Below are positions 4,029 through 48,213 of a DNA stretch of 64,000 bases, piece after piece. The position numbers and the translations under genes are program-made. This DNA is from Candidatus Gastranaerophilales bacterium. Lineage in GTDB: Bacteria; Cyanobacteriota; Vampirovibrionia; Gastranaerophilales; Gastranaerophilaceae. Every line of letters starts with the position of its first letter. The stretch's first letter is position 1. Under the pieces are notes generated by a model. That model was not told the DNA's origin. It saw only the letters and a program-made list of their open reading frames with translations, and did no database searches. Where the stretch lies: NCBI GenBank assembly GCA_944326485.1, contig CALVED010000002.1, forward strand, positions 1-64,000. Direction: 5' to 3'.

Positions 4029-5978
4029 TTATTTTGTATATTTTGCCATATCTGCAAAAATATTTTTTGTTTTTTGATTTTGATTAAAAAATTCTGGACT
4101 TAGTGTATTTATATTATTTTTCATGTTTAGATTTTTTTGATTTTCTTCTTCTCTAATACGTTTTTTAGTTGCTCTTTCGTTTATAGCCGGTAATAAGAAG
4201 CCTAAGAATACTGGTACTAAGACAAGAACAGAAAGTGCTGTAAATCTTGCATTTAATGTTTTAGCCTTTTGTACCCAAGGATTATTTTTATCTCTGAATA
4301 AGTCGGTTAATTTTTTAACATCATCAGAATCAATAGCTTTTGTTAAAGTATCTTTTATTGTTGTATTATCTGCTGTTGCGATATCCTTACCTTCTTTAGC
4401 AAGTAATTTTTGAACTATATTTTTTGCTTCATCTGTAACACTAAATACTTTTGAAAGATTTCCGCCTTGACCTTCAATAAACTCGCAAAATCCTTTTATT
4501 CCATCTTTATATTTATCTATTCCGCTATATTTTGAAATTATTTGTTCCGAAGAAAGTACTTGTACTCCTTTTATTGGTCTAAGATAATCAAATATTTTCT
4601 TAAACAAATTTTGTTGTTCAAATCCTTTATCCTTTGCAGCTAGAACAAGACCTGATTTTGTTTCATTTAGTTTTGAAAATCCTTTACGTAGTTCTTTTTC
4701 TGCAAAACACATTGTTGCACAAGTAACCAAGTCTCTTCTTAAAATTTCTTCTCTGTCATATTTATCTTTTGCTTGGAGTGTACGTGGAATAAGAATACCA
4801 AATCCCATAATTCCAAGTAGCAACGGGAATGAAACATTACAGCCTTCAAATTCAATAGTTTGAGCTATTTTACCTATAATTCCTTTTGTATTTGTTAGAG
4901 TATTTGTAATTGTAGCAGCAGATCCAAATGATGGATTTGATTTATCTTTTGTTGCTTTTTCTTCTGTATTTTTTGCTGTTGTTTCATTAAGAGTTTTATA
5001 TTTTAATGTCTCTTCTTTCATTAAACCTTTAAGTCCGGCGTTGGATTTTCCTTCTGCCTTATTATATAACCTTGGTATAATTTGCAAAAACGCCATAATA
5101 GCACTATACATTGCTGCATTCATTGCAAATCTTCCTATTACTTTCTTATTAGCAATATTTTTTATAAATTCATTTATTTTACCAACATCTTGTTTTTGTG
5201 CTTTTGCAACAATATCATCGGCGTATGACATCATATAATTTATAGTATCTTTAATTGGGGCAGATGTATTTGGAGTTACAACGGCAGTAGTAAAATCTGT
5301 ATGTGCCGCATCTTTCGCATGATTTTTTACTATTCCTATAAATTCATTTGATAATTTAGATAAAGTTTCTTTTTGAGCCACTTTATCTTTTGCTGTTTTT
5401 GCTAATCTTTCTGCAAAGTTTGCTGCTGTTTCTATAGTTTCTTTTGATACTTCTGTTTCTGATTTAGCATTTTTTATAATTTGAGCAAATGTATTTTTAT
5501 AGAAATCTTGTTTACTTATAGCCTCACCTGCTTCATTTATTGCTTGAGCAGCATGAATTTCTCCAAATGATTTTATGAATTTCATTGGTACATCTATTGT
5601 TTTTCCAATGATTCTTTTACCTACACCAAGCATTCCCATTGGGATAAGGAACATACTTGGACCTGTAAGCATTTCTCTTACAAGTTCTTTTGCTGCAAAT
5701 TTGAGATTCTTCTCTCCTTTATTTTCTTTCGTATTTCTTCTTAATCCCATAATTGGTCTTGGAAGATTTGTTCCTAACATGTCTTGGAATGTAAATGATA
5801 TTGCAAGTCCGCCATTTTCTATTAAATCTGCAACACCTAAACAAAATGAATCTAAACCACCTTTAAAAGTCGGATTATTTTTTGTTCTTATATTATTATT
5901 TATGTTTATCTTATTATAATCTTGACTTTGTTTTGTCTTATTTTTAGGAATATCTGTTGTTATTCTGTTTATTCTCAT
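4029..5978 (-). CDS. Large tagged membrane-associated protein, paralogue of the 46498-48213 gene
   Basis: A 649-residue protein of unknown function. It begins MRI and has T-F-K-G-G at residues 37-41, the N-terminal signature discussed in the findings. A conserved core follows: LGTNLPRP at about 72-79, then hydrophobic segments near residues 105-125, 280-300 and 385-410, long charged helical stretches, and a C-terminal hydrophobic segment (about 587-610, ending PAINERATKKR) with a basic tail. The same order (tag, NIPR motif, hydrophobic segments, C-terminal LLP-x-x-N/Y-x-x-x-T-x-R) occurs in the gene at 46498, so the two form one family. No enzymatic motif is visible. It probably associates with the membrane. 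Its stop abuts the rqcH stop. Confidence 0.8.
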   Translation of the reverse strand: MRINRITTDIPKNKTKQSQDYNKININNNIRTKNNPTFKGGLDSFCLGVADLIENGGLAISFTFQDMLGTNLPRPIMGLRRNTKENKGEKNLKFAAKELVREMLTGPSMFLIPMGMLGVGKRIIGKTIDVPMKFIKSFGEIHAAQAINEAGEAISKQDFYKNTFAQIIKNAKSETEVSKETIETAANFAERLAKTAKDKVAQKETLSKLSNEFIGIVKNHAKDAAHTDFTTAVVTPNTSAPIKDTINYMMSYADDIVAKAQKQDVGKINEFIKNIANKKVIGRFAMNAAMYSAIMAFLQIIPRLYNKAEGKSNAGLKGLMKEETLKYKTLNETTAKNTEEKATKDKSNPSFGSAATITNTLTNTKGIIGKIAQTIEFEGCNVSFPLLLGIMGFGILIPRTLQAKDKYDREEILRRDLVTCATMCFAEKELRKGFSKLNETKSGLVLAAKDKGFEQQNLFKKIFDYLRPIKGVQVLSSEQIISKYSGIDKYKDGIKGFCEFIEGQGGNLSKVFSVTDEAKNIVQKLLAKEGKDIATADNTTIKDTLTKAIDSDDVKKLTDLFRDKNNPWVQKAKTLNARFTALSVLVLVPVFLGFLLPAINERATKKRIREEENQKNLNMKNNINTLSPEFFNQNQKTKNIFADMAKYTK

Positions 5979-34693: not shown

Positions 34694-35743
34694 ATGAAGA
34701 TTACGGCTTTGGGACGACCATTTTACCATTATCCTAAGAGTAATGCATTCATAAGCAAAGTTTCAATGTCCGCACCAAAATCTCAAGGTGCGGATATTTT
34801 TTGCTTTAAAGGTGCATCAACTCTTTCTGATAAGGCAAGTATTATTCCATCATCAAATCCAACAGATTTGGAATATCAAGTTGAAAAGAATACAGGAATT
34901 GTGCCTGTAGATACTGTTGTAAAAAAGTTCAAAAATGGAGAAACATACGTTAATATAGCTGGCAATATAAGGGGAAAAGATGTTTATATTATGCCTGCAG
35001 GCGGAAATAACGTTAATGATAACCTGATGGAAACATATTTAAAAGCAGATGCGGCAAAAAGAGCAGGTGCCGATAGGGTAATTGCCATATTGCCTAGTTT
35101 TGATTATGCTCGTCAAGAAAAAAGGACAGAAAAAGGCGAACCTATTGCAGCTCGTTTAAATATGGATTTATTAAAGACATCAGGTGTAGATGAAATAATC
35201 ACAACAGATTTACACACCCCTGCAATTGAAGGATTTGCTCCAAATTCTATGAAAGTAACACATATAGAATCAATGCAATTGATGAAAAATTATATAACAT
35301 CTAAAGGACTTAAAGATTTGGTTGTTGTAAGTCCTGATTTGGGCGGAACAAAAAGAGCTGATAAATTAGCGAAATCACTTGGTTGTGATAAGGCAATAGT
35401 ATATAAACATCGTCAAGCACATAATGAAGCCACAGCAGAAGAATTAATAGGTGATGTTACCGGTAAAAATTGTATAATATTTGACGATATTATAGATACA
35501 GCAGGAACGATAGCTGAAGCATCAAAACTATTAAAGAAAAAAGGAGCTAAAGATATCTATGTATGTGCTGCTCATGGTTTATTTAACGGTGAGGCAATGA
35601 AAAGATTAAATGATGCTCCTGTTAAAGAAGTTATAGTAACAAATAGTGTGGAGAAAAAGCCAAATTCTATTGAGAAGATTAAGCAGGTTGATATTTCTTT
35701 TGAAATTGCAAAAGCAATGCAGGCTTTATCTCAAGCAGGTTAA
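34694..35743 (+). CDS. Ribose-phosphate pyrophosphokinase-like protein with tagged N-terminal extension
   Basis: A 349-residue protein. From about residue 60 it follows PRPP synthetase: F-K-N-G-E-T-Y-V-N-I, N-I-R-G-K-D-V-Y-I, the ATP-binding D-Y-A-R-Q-E-K-R, the metal-binding D-L-H, the ribose-5-P region V-S-P-D-L-G-G-T-K-R-A, and the PRPP loop D-D-I-I-D-T-A-G-T. It would make PRPP from ribose-5-phosphate and ATP. The first ~50 residues are an extra segment beginning M-K-I-T and containing C-F-K-G (37-40), the signature seen on unrelated proteins here. Core length is otherwise standard. It may be a second, specialised copy; a conventional prs would lie elsewhere. Confidence 0.85.
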   Translation: MKITALGRPFYHYPKSNAFISKVSMSAPKSQGADIFCFKGASTLSDKASIIPSSNPTDLEYQVEKNTGIVPVDTVVKKFKNGETYVNIAGNIRGKDVYIMPAGGNNVNDNLMETYLKADAAKRAGADRVIAILPSFDYARQEKRTEKGEPIAARLNMDLLKTSGVDEIITTDLHTPAIEGFAPNSMKVTHIESMQLMKNYITSKGLKDLVVVSPDLGGTKRADKLAKSLGCDKAIVYKHRQAHNEATAEELIGDVTGKNCIIFDDIIDTAGTIAEASKLLKKKGAKDIYVCAAHGLFNGEAMKRLNDAPVKEVIVTNSVEKKPNSIEKIKQVDISFEIAKAMQALSQAG

Positions 35744-43850: not shown

Positions 43851-44876
43851 TTGATTTCTATTTCATCATATTGTGATATAAAAAATAATAAATATTTAAA
43901 CAGTTTTGCGGCAAATAGGCCAAAAGTAAACAGTTTTAGTGGTGCAGATGTTGTTAATATACTTTCACAAGGTGATAAAGCACTAAATGAGAATAGAATA
44001 GAAGAAGCTCTAAAGTATTATCAAGAGGCATTAAAAATAGCTCCTGATAATACCGATATAAATAGGAAATTAGGAAAAACATACCATAAATTAAAAAATT
44101 ATGATTTAGCTGAAGAAAATTTTAAAATATATTTGAAAGCAAATGAAAAAGATGCTGAAGTATGGATAGAATTAGGAGAATCTCAAAGACAAAAGGCCTC
44201 ATACAGAGAAGCAAAAAACAGCTTTGAAACAGCCTTAAGTATAGAACCAAGTAATGACTTGGCAAGGAGAAGTATATTAGAAACAGAAAATAATATATTA
44301 AGTTGTTTTTCTCCTCAAAGAGCTTATGAAGAAAAACAAGAATATGCACAAAATAACTTAAAAGAAGCATTAAGAATGGCTGTAGAGTATATGACACCAA
44401 ATTATATGCAAGATTTAGCTAATGTAGAAATAAAATATGGACAAACTGCTTCTATGGGTGGGACATCAAATATTGCCCAATATGAAGATTCAATTAAAAC
44501 AATAACAATTTCTAATGCATATCAATATGCATCACCACAAGTTATTGCGGCATATTTAGTACATGAATCTGTGCACGCAAAAGATGCGGATCCTTATACT
44601 TCAGTGCGAGAAGAACAAGATGCATATGAAATAGCAACAAAGTTTTGGATAAAATATTCAAACGGAATAAATGATCCTGAAATGGATTATGCTGCAGATT
44701 TATATAAGAAGTCACCAACACAATTACGTGACAGAGTTGAAGAAATTTATGTTTTAAGAGATCCTTCTATTGCAAAAACATCACCAAATCATCCTCCTGA
44801 AAAAAAGAAATTTTTTAATTTTTCAAAGCAAAATGCTGCTACACAATCAATAAAAAGATATGATATTATTGCATAA
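43851..44876 (+). CDS. Tagged TPR protein with HExxH zinc-peptidase motif
   Basis: A 341-residue protein. Residues 27-31 read N-S-F-S-G, a variant of the N-terminal tag. Three TPR units follow (about 36-145, with A-L-K-Y-Y-Q-E-A-L-K-I-A-P-D-N). A C-terminal domain then carries V-H-E-S-V-H-A-K-D (about 237-245), a zinc-binding HExxH, with E-E-Q-D-A-Y-E ~13 residues later as candidate third ligand. It is therefore a putative metallopeptidase with a protein-binding scaffold. No signal peptide is seen. It uses a TTG start with aagga nine bases upstream; no ATG exists near the 5' end. It is the first of five neighbouring genes with the tag or a variant. Confidence 0.72.
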   Translation: MISISSYCDIKNNKYLNSFAANRPKVNSFSGADVVNILSQGDKALNENRIEEALKYYQEALKIAPDNTDINRKLGKTYHKLKNYDLAEENFKIYLKANEKDAEVWIELGESQRQKASYREAKNSFETALSIEPSNDLARRSILETENNILSCFSPQRAYEEKQEYAQNNLKEALRMAVEYMTPNYMQDLANVEIKYGQTASMGGTSNIAQYEDSIKTITISNAYQYASPQVIAAYLVHESVHAKDADPYTSVREEQDAYEIATKFWIKYSNGINDPEMDYAADLYKKSPTQLRDRVEEIYVLRDPSIAKTSPNHPPEKKKFFNFSKQNAATQSIKRYDIIA

Positions 44877-45064: not shown

Positions 45065-46198
45065 TTAGTTTGATAATTTAGGATTATCATCTTCAAATAA
45101 TTTTAGGTCGCCTTTAGATGCTTCAAATATAGTTTGTGTTGCATATGCAACGTAATCTTTGTATTTTTTCTTTTTTAGTTTTTCTGAACCAATTAATGAA
45201 TTTACTTCATCAAAATATTTTTTCATATATTTAATTCTGTTTTCCTTATCTTCATTTAACCATTGAAGAAAAGGTTTATTACCTTTTTGAGAGTTACAAG
45301 ACTGATGCATAGAAATATAATTAGAAATATCATTTCCATTGTTATTTAGATCGTAAGCAATAATATGATCCGTATTTGCAATGGATGATTCTAAAAACCT
45401 AAGTGCTATTTGATAAGAAGTCCAATCTTCATTTTGTTTATTTTTTCCCGAATATTTAACAATCCAAGCAGAATTCATATCAGAAGAAGTTGGAAATCCT
45501 TTTGCCAAAGTTTGAATCTTTTCATATTTTTTTGGATTTTGGATTTTAATTTTACTAATTCTATCAATCATAATTTTTCTTCTAACAGGTGCGGAAGGAT
45601 TTTTCTTTCTAATCATGCATTGAAGGGAATCGAGTTTTTTCATTAATGCATTTTTTTCGTTCTGAGGGAGTCCTTTTGCAATTGCTCTCATTTTTTTGAT
45701 TTGTCTCATTTGTGTTTTTTGAAGTATTGGCAATTTTGTATCTCTTAAATCAACAAGCAGTGTTCTTATATCTTTTGAGTTACCATTTTTTTCTGATAAT
45801 GCCAGAATTTCATCATAAACACTTTCTTCAACAGGTCTCATATATTCTCTATAATGTCCTAAATATTCAAGATATTGATCATTTGGTATGTTTGCCAGTT
45901 CTTGTGCTATTAGGTTAAAAGTTGCTCTATTGAGCATTTTCTTTCCACAAGAAGGACATGTGATATCTCCTATTTTAGATATAGCAAAATTGCCTGACTT
46001 TTCAGCTAACTTCCTTTTTGAAGAATCTGCGCCATGAGTTCTTGTTTTTGATGAGAAAGAAATTGGAAAGTAAAAAAAGTTAGTTATTTCATTTGTTTGA
46101 ACATATTTATTATTATCAACCACTTGTGTAGAAATTTTATTAGGTGATTGATTTATATTTATTTGATTTCTAAAATATGTAATCGGCTGTATTTTCAT
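45065..46198 (-). CDS. Tagged HNH-nuclease-like protein
   Basis: A 377-residue protein. It opens MKIQPITY and has I-S-F-S-S at 46-50, matching the bipartite tag. A Cys-x-x-Cys (C-P-S-C, about 80-83) is followed by a long basic helical middle. The C-terminal third shows an HNH pattern: N-T-D-H-I-I-A-Y-D near residue 278, then N-Y-I-S-M-H-Q-S-C-N-S-Q-K-G-N-K. This matches the D-H-I ... N ... C-N-x-x-K-G-N core of HNH endonucleases. Only one C-x-x-C pair is obvious, so the usual second zinc ligand pair is incomplete. The target is unknown, and no homing or restriction partner is adjacent. Confidence 0.72.
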   Translation of the reverse strand: MKIQPITYFRNQININQSPNKISTQVVDNNKYVQTNEITNFFYFPISFSSKTRTHGADSSKRKLAEKSGNFAISKIGDITCPSCGKKMLNRATFNLIAQELANIPNDQYLEYLGHYREYMRPVEESVYDEILALSEKNGNSKDIRTLLVDLRDTKLPILQKTQMRQIKKMRAIAKGLPQNEKNALMKKLDSLQCMIRKKNPSAPVRRKIMIDRISKIKIQNPKKYEKIQTLAKGFPTSSDMNSAWIVKYSGKNKQNEDWTSYQIALRFLESSIANTDHIIAYDLNNNGNDISNYISMHQSCNSQKGNKPFLQWLNEDKENRIKYMKKYFDEVNSLIGSEKLKKKKYKDYVAYATQTIFEASKGDLKLFEDDNPKLSN

Positions 46199-46497: not shown

Positions 46498-48213
46498 GTG
46501 CGAATATCAGAAGTAGATGTTTATAAAACAAGACAAAACAATAAATTAAAAAATGTTCAAGAAAATAAAAAATCATTAAAAAATCAAAGTTTTAATGGTG
46601 GAATTTCTGATGCTGCTTTTAATATACTGGATAAAGGATTTAGTGTATTAGATAAAAATGCAATGATACAGGTATCATTTGTAGATACAGTATCAACAAA
46701 TATACCAAGGACACTTGTAGATTTAAAGACAGGCCTGGCAGCAGCATTTGAAACATGTCGAAGAGAATTTTCAGGTTTATTTGTAAATTGTTTAATGCCT
46801 GGTCTAATAGTAAAGGGCTTGGCAGGATTTTTACCAAAGTCAAAAGAATTAAAAGGAACAAATGTTGTAGGTTCTTGGGCCAATGGTGATTCTATTAATA
46901 AATTACAAGAAGTATATAAACAAGCTCAAGAATCTGGAGCAGTTGATAAAACAAAAAAATATGTAGAAATGGCACTTTCTTCAATAGAAGGATTAGACGG
47001 TAAAACTTGGGTGAAATATGCGGATAAAGCAAATATGCCTGAGTATAAAGAAGCTGTTTCAATTATAACAGAGGCAATATCTAAGAATGGCGGTGAAAGA
47101 AAGAAATTACTGAAAACCGCGCAAGGTAAGCTGGCTGGTATTACAAAAGCAGAAAGCGTACTAAGATTCAATGGTATGGCACAAGCTAATTTAGAAGATA
47201 CATTAAGAGATGTTGCAGATTTGGGTTCGAAATTTAATTTTGTGAAGAAACAAACAGTTAATAATCTTGCTCAGGCAAATGGAATAGCTACAGAAGCCCA
47301 AACCGCATCAAAAGTAAATGAAGCAATTAATAATTATGGTTCAAAGTTAAAAGACTTTGTTAATAAGAAAAGTTTAATTGGTATGGGGATAGTTATTGCA
47401 ATAGCAGTAAGTATTCAAACTATAAACAGAGCGATAACAAGAAAACAATTTAAAGCAGAAGGTGCTCCAATATATAAAGATTTTGGTAAAAAAGATACAA
47501 CACAAAAAATGGATGAGAAACAGAAGAAAAAGTTTTTCATGAAAAAACTGGCAGCTGCAACAGGCATGTATGGTTTAGCTGCAATATCAATGATGAAAAA
47601 ACCTTCACTAGGAATGTTTCAATTTTCAAGTATTTTCCCAACGATGGATCAATGCAGATGGATAGCTTCTTCAACTTTTGCAAGTAGGATGATTGGAGCT
47701 GAAGACGAGAATGAACTTAGGGAAACAACTGTAAGGGATATAGCCTCATTTGCAGGATTGTATTTCCTTGGAGATTATGTGAAAAAAGGTGTAGCATCTG
47801 CAATAGAAGCTTTATCTAAAACAAAGGCAGGAAAAAATTTATTTAAAGAAGAAATAGTTTTATTAAATAGAAAAAAAGAAGTTGCAAAACCTTTATTAAA
47901 TGAAGGTGCTTCTGTTGTACAAAAATTAGGTACTCAAGGTGTATATAGGCTTAAACAGCTTGGTAATTGGATTAAGAATACTGATTTAAAAACAGCTAAT
48001 GAAGTTTCAAATATAAAAGTTAGAAACCTTAGAAATATATGTAGAGTTGCTGATATTGCATTCTCTGTTGTAATGCTTGGAATATTACTTCCAAAATACA
48101 ATAGAAAAGTAACAGAAAGAAAAGTTGCTGAGGCAAAAAAACAAGAGCAGCTTCAACAATCTAAGAATATGCCATTTCAAGAAGTTCCTAAAATATTTAA
48201 AGAGTTAACATAA
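46498..48213 (+). CDS. Large tagged membrane-associated protein, paralogue of the 4029-5978 gene
   Basis: A 571-residue protein of unknown function. It begins MRIS, has Q-S-F-N-G-G at 30-35 and S-T-N-I-P-R-T about 30 residues later, then hydrophobic stretches (about 85-105, 297-315 and 360-375). The C-terminal segment is V-V-M-L-G-I-L-L-P-K-Y with a basic tail. Order and several motifs match the 649-residue protein at 4029-5978, which also starts MRI. The start was set at the GTG at 46498 (gaagg eight bases before) rather than the TTG at 46483. No enzyme motif. The ~300-bp gap upstream is A-rich, with no gene or repeat visible. Confidence 0.78.
   Translation: MRISEVDVYKTRQNNKLKNVQENKKSLKNQSFNGGISDAAFNILDKGFSVLDKNAMIQVSFVDTVSTNIPRTLVDLKTGLAAAFETCRREFSGLFVNCLMPGLIVKGLAGFLPKSKELKGTNVVGSWANGDSINKLQEVYKQAQESGAVDKTKKYVEMALSSIEGLDGKTWVKYADKANMPEYKEAVSIITEAISKNGGERKKLLKTAQGKLAGITKAESVLRFNGMAQANLEDTLRDVADLGSKFNFVKKQTVNNLAQANGIATEAQTASKVNEAINNYGSKLKDFVNKKSLIGMGIVIAIAVSIQTINRAITRKQFKAEGAPIYKDFGKKDTTQKMDEKQKKKFFMKKLAAATGMYGLAAISMMKKPSLGMFQFSSIFPTMDQCRWIASSTFASRMIGAEDENELRETTVRDIASFAGLYFLGDYVKKGVASAIEALSKTKAGKNLFKEEIVLLNRKKEVAKPLLNEGASVVQKLGTQGVYRLKQLGNWIKNTDLKTANEVSNIKVRNLRNICRVADIAFSVVMLGILLPKYNRKVTERKVAEAKKQEQLQQSKNMPFQEVPKIFKELT

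Follow-up and report, generated by a model that had tools for sequence, protein, structure and literature searches.

The first 64,000 nucleotides of contig CALVED010000002.1 (assembly GCA_944326485.1), here called the window, belong to a Candidatus Gastranaerophilales bacterium with a genome of 1.9 Mb and ~29% G+C. The window holds two long genes, P0002 and P0001, whose products share an F-x-G motif (the tag) in a polar N-terminus as well as internal hydrophobic segments. An initial annotation took the two for one undescribed family that arose by an old duplication. This raises the question of whether the proteins are related, how far such a family extends, and what a tag of this kind could be for. 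The comparisons below indicate that P0001 and P0002 are almost certainly homologous and belong to a two-repeat family found across the order. That its members are tagged, putative type III-exported membrane proteins is put forward tentatively, as the link from tag to export is circumstantial. The features concerned are as follows.

4029..5978, minus strand: P0002, tagged two-repeat predicted membrane protein of family 1, 649 amino acids (aa)
5856..5873, minus strand: N-terminal tag PTFKGG, P0002 residues 36-41; F and the first G are invariant in 29 genus orthologues
5757..5771, minus strand: TNLPR, P0002 residues 70-74, within the repeat-1 motif D..PR..E..RE
4920..4937, minus strand: internal tag NPSFGS, P0002 residues 348-353, at the repeat junction, identified from orthologue conservation
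4731..4784, minus strand: repeat-2 motif R399..D405..E411..R415-D416 of P0002
4167..4244, minus strand: C-terminal hydrophobic segment of P0002, LG-x2-LP-x2-N-x3-T, residues 579-604
46498..48213, plus strand: P0001, tagged two-repeat predicted membrane protein of family 2, 571 aa, GTG start
46588..46602, plus strand: N-terminal tag SFNGG, P0001 residues 31-35
46696..46710, plus strand: TNIPR, P0001 residues 67-71, repeat-1 motif
47686..47739, plus strand: repeat-2 motif R397..D403..ELRET..R413-D414 of P0001
48046..48114, plus strand: C-terminal hydrophobic segment of P0001, LG-x2-LP-x2-N-x3-T, residues 517-539

Homology of P0001 and P0002

Profiles of 29 P0002 (family 1) and 30 P0001 (family 2) orthologues, all from one genus, were compared with HHalign. 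They are collinear over 514 columns with a probability of 96%, an E-value of 3.3e-9 and a score of 78.9, against 30.6 for the best of 40 block-shuffled controls and 26.9 for the reversed control. Direct BLASTP of the two proteins gives short, weak but collinear pieces (P0001/P0002 residues 31-77/37-80, E=0.004; 397-451/399-461, E=0.038; 522-558/579-623, E=0.059). A superfamily profile, A1, matches both genes at 1e-158 and 1e-117; since both are rows of that profile, the genus-only comparison serves as the independent test of homology.

The short motifs that first suggested a relationship are present as described. Both proteins open with MRI, followed by FKGG at residues 38-41 of P0002 or FNGG at 32-35 of P0001, and then by the T-N-I/L-P-R motif at 70-74 and 67-71, respectively. 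Among the columns that never vary in an alignment of 33 members are the tag F, D63, P70, E90, R397, D414 and G528 (P0001 numbering), while R71, R89, R413, N310, N535 and T539 are conserved in at least 90% of rows. The proposed correspondence of the hydrophobic segments stands for P0001 291-309 with P0002 284-302 and for 517-535 with 579-597; P0001 350-368 lacks a counterpart in P0002.

The GTG at 46498, which had been deduced as the P0001 start, is backed by an upstream GAAGG motif and by the orthologues, most of those shown beginning at the same column with MKIS, MRVS or similar. There is no support for a longer reading from TTG 46483. Between 46480 and 46500, an A7 run upstream of P0001 shifts a nearby ATG out of frame, unlike in the nearest relative (L033), reflecting either an indel or an assembly slip.

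Two units, split genes and an order-wide family

A full-length member consists of two diverged copies of one ~250-300-aa unit. Profiles of the N-terminal and C-terminal halves align with a score of 53.0 (E 4.8e-7; controls ≤24.2), anchored by the PR...E..RE / R...ELRET..RD motif and then by the hydrophobic segment before N-x3-T. Each unit comprises helices with conserved R and E/D, including D..PR..E..RE in copy 1 and R..D..ELRET..RD in copy 2, and closes with a hydrophobic segment ending in N-x3-T. The tag lies ahead of copy 1 in a disordered stretch rich in N, K, Q and S. Copy 2 is usually tag-preceded as well, both where the genes are split and in the fused P0002, where the P-S-F-G-S of the linker is nearly invariant (S and F in 29/29 orthologues, P in 28/29) amid hypervariable surroundings.

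The order's other taxonomic families usually encode family 1 as two adjacent open reading frames; such halves can overlap and each carry a tag. At L077:2914-6765, four overlapping frames encode the N and C halves of a family-1 member and then those of a second member, each of them tagged; some split C halves elsewhere have no clear tag. One family-1 gene could be read as '3 TAG'; it is simply split and not a case of recoding. The repeat, the split genes, the internal tag and the additional members in the same genome, along with the minus strand of 4029-5978 and the spread through the order, go beyond the initial annotation.

Duplicated membrane proteins that occur either as paired genes or as one fused gene are known from the small multidrug resistance and Fluc families. 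The family described here resembles them in having homologous halves that are split or fused. It differs in showing no sequence relation to them, in its much longer units, and in the tag at the start of each unit.

The family is far larger than the two members originally proposed, although the view that it is undescribed holds. Neither Pfam, NCBIfam, PHROGs nor PADLOC gives a match above cut-off, and PDB contains no sequence match, in keeping with the earlier statement that no known domain is visible. With no known relative in the databases compared, the family is uncharacterised. The same genome encodes further paralogues. One more strong member lies at C6:66777-68342, and weaker matches are found at C1:162 kb, C4:195 kb and C2:198 kb, the last of these being 526 aa long and having a second tag internally. 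In a class-wide draw, 161 of 240 genomes are family-positive, including all but one genome of the organism's own taxonomic family, with weaker matches in some others. Nearly every sampled Gastranaerophilales genome carries the superfamily, with several matches per genome, and a few sister lineages match weakly; none of the matches listed from a phylum draw of 292 genomes lies outside the class. Among the organisms named for loci of another family member are Candidatus Gastranaerophilales and Candidatus Melainabacteria, sampled from rumen, rabbit and elsewhere.

A maximum-likelihood tree sets the P0002 lineage apart from all others (100/100). Members from the order's other taxonomic families branch within the P0001, C6 and L101 lineages or beside them, so the duplications are older than the divergence of those families. 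As the P0001 lineage groups with other families of the order, its separation from P0002 predates the genus, consistent with the old duplication first proposed. The superfamily comprises at least four ancient lineages of paralogues, of which P0001 and P0002 represent two.

Tagged proteins and a flagellum-type export apparatus

Hydrophobicity was scored with a simplified, centre-weighted insertion scale, a proxy, using seven inner-membrane proteins of the window and seven soluble proteins as controls. The best segments of the 33 members have a median of 0.39 (range -0.37 to 2.22), compared with -1.1 to -3.7 for the inner-membrane proteins and at least 2.6 for the soluble ones. Hence the strongest segment of every member is less hydrophobic than those of the resident membrane proteins and more so than those of the soluble proteins. 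Intermediate hydrophobicity has been reported for the segments of type III and type IVB membrane substrates (PMC6110835), and the family matches this pattern. Its N-termini, rich in N, Q, T and S and poor in L and E, have a composition that fits a type III signal; the tag itself corresponds to no known type III signal.

The AlphaFold model of L118, a member of the L101 lineage, has a predicted local distance difference test (pLDDT) score of 75.3 and a predicted template modelling score of 0.72. After a disordered tagged N-terminus come long helices in pairs, then an alpha-beta region at residues 113-229, one long helix and a second set. The alpha-beta region is the best-predicted part, and the tag region has a pLDDT of ~30. 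Fold matches to this model are at chance level (best Foldseek E 0.15, best VIA-align Z 5.2 in PDB, with BFVD viral models likewise). A P0001 model made with remote homologues reached a pLDDT of 51, too poor for use.

The tag is also found on other proteins. A rule requiring a polar N-terminus and F-x-[GASN], applied to ~27% of the genome, picks out 23 of 436 called genes as opposed to 2 of 1541 internal methionines. Similar tags thus sit on ~4-5% of the sampled genes, and ~4% is taken as a fair rate because a few of the 23 (a ribosomal protein, a helicase-like protein) are clearly false. A convergent tagged pair at L175:5481-8537 (C2:85-89 kb) encodes a protein with an ADP-ribosyltransferase exoenzyme domain and an ADP-ribosylglycohydrolase. 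A tagged metallophosphatase has a weak 5'-nucleotidase C-terminal match and lacks a hydrophobic signal peptide. Three further tagged proteins are encoded within the window.

45065..46198, minus strand: tagged HNH-domain protein, the divergent neighbour of P0001 in 30/30 genus loci
43851-44876: TPR protein carrying a tag and, towards its C-terminus, an HExxH-like motif
34694-35743: phosphoribosyl pyrophosphate (PRPP) synthetase whose N-terminus is extended by ~45 residues that include a tag

A flagellum-type type III export apparatus is encoded at L192 (C1:136-147 kb), where FliI, FlhA, FliH, a weakly FliG-like protein, FliF, a FliE-like protein, a transglycosylase and several rod-type genes lie together, FliI, the FliE-like protein and the rod genes being named by eye. 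No flagellin match was found in the genome. The possibility of a type IV secretion apparatus was set aside, as a search for VirB4 found it absent. Many relatives carry an extra, more canonical FlhA. A second FHIPEP protein, L191:11328-12791 (C2:251-253 kb), has only the cytoplasmic part (487 aa). A search of 57 genomes of the order finds this soluble FlhA-C paralogue in 54. In the genus it usually stands beside ClpP and a conserved 178-aa protein of unassigned function; in this genome it adjoins two tagged proteins, each of which resembles a separate single unit as judged by eye. Across the same 240 genomes, FlhA accompanies the family in all 161 positive genomes, and the 54 genomes that lack FlhA lack the family too.

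Export, residence and other explanations

In the export reading, the F-x-G tag would be recognised by a non-motile type III apparatus of flagellar origin, perhaps with the soluble FlhA-C paralogue as the reader, and family members would be membrane-active substrates of this apparatus. Their moderately hydrophobic segments would keep them out of the cell's own inner membrane, and the exported proteins would insert into some membrane beyond the cytoplasm or into that of a partner cell. Several observations weigh against this. The family has ~6 hydrophobic helices, more than is usual for type III membrane substrates (PMC6110835), and the hydrophobicity scale is a simplified one. Only ~9 of 30 genus loci have the FlhA-C paralogue next to the tagged pair. 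The family is missing from 25 FlhA-positive genomes, and its co-occurrence with FlhA tracks phylogeny and may reflect one ancestral gain. In 100-kb samples from two other family-positive genomes the tag rule finds only ~1% of genes, in a sampling (four other genomes, 100 kb each) too small to decide. The tag is also conserved internally, which is needless for a purely N-terminal type III signal, and it occurs on PRPP synthetase, an ordinary cytoplasmic type of enzyme.

The last two points also favour the explanation that ranks close behind, namely that the members reside in the inner membrane and have two-fold pseudo-symmetry, serving as a transporter, channel or envelope scaffold. The tag could then be a cytosolic docking motif through which one shared partner gathers the enzymes and membrane proteins that carry it. 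The two repeats with conserved charged residues in both, the split and fused versions, and the long paired helices of the orthologue model are consistent with this possibility. However, the segments are weaker than those of the seven inner-membrane proteins of the window, no transporter family is matched and the fold matches of the orthologue model stay at chance level, and several tagged enzymes are of types often exported. Quite unlikely, in our assessment, is that these are mainly helical, peripheral or structural proteins only touching membranes, whose helices pack together and whose tag serves the function of each repeat. Segments marginal for insertion, tags on each repeat of split genes and the well-predicted alpha-beta region would all suit such proteins, but the strongest segments approach real membrane helices, the tag region is predicted to be disordered, and similar tags occur on unrelated proteins. 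Multiple paralogues, the HNH neighbour and the tagged ADP-ribosyltransferase-domain protein elsewhere in the genome might suggest toxin, immunity or anti-phage defence proteins. This is very improbable given a distribution that is near-universal in the order, at several matches per genome, and not patchy, with no PADLOC or PHROGs match.

Type III export remains the preferred, if tentative, reading, and known type III-secreted transmembrane proteins, comprising translocators and membrane effectors (PMC6110835), provide the closest comparison. The shared features are a disordered polar N-terminus, moderately hydrophobic segments and a type III apparatus in the genome. Unlike them, the family lacks a sequence or fold match, has two repeats and ~6 hydrophobic helices, and carries its tag internally as well. 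No recognised chaperone lies beside the P0001 and P0002 loci, although no search was aimed at chaperones. Translocator Pfam profiles (SseC/IpaB type, SctB) yield one match among the 33 members, to SctB2 at E 0.049, and nothing else of the kind.

Incomplete flagellar gene sets in some gut Melainabacteria, the lineage of this genome, have been read as genome reduction or non-motility (Di Rienzi 2013, PMC3787301; PMC5877343). The parts of these accounts drawn on here make no mention of a dedicated export role, a soluble FlhA-C paralogue or tagged substrates. In a broader scenario, which we consider doubtful as a whole, a filament-less flagellum-derived type III system would have been kept as an order-wide secretion machine, with a new F-x-G tag, also internal, read via the soluble FlhA-C paralogue. 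The superfamily would then supply its main membrane-inserting substrates, acting on other gut cells or the host. Gastranaerophilales are uncultured animal-gut bacteria whose surface and secretion biology is almost entirely uncharted. A near-universal multi-copy family, a tag shared with enzymes of often-exported types and a flagellin-less apparatus together offer a concrete, testable way into how these bacteria may interact with neighbours or hosts.
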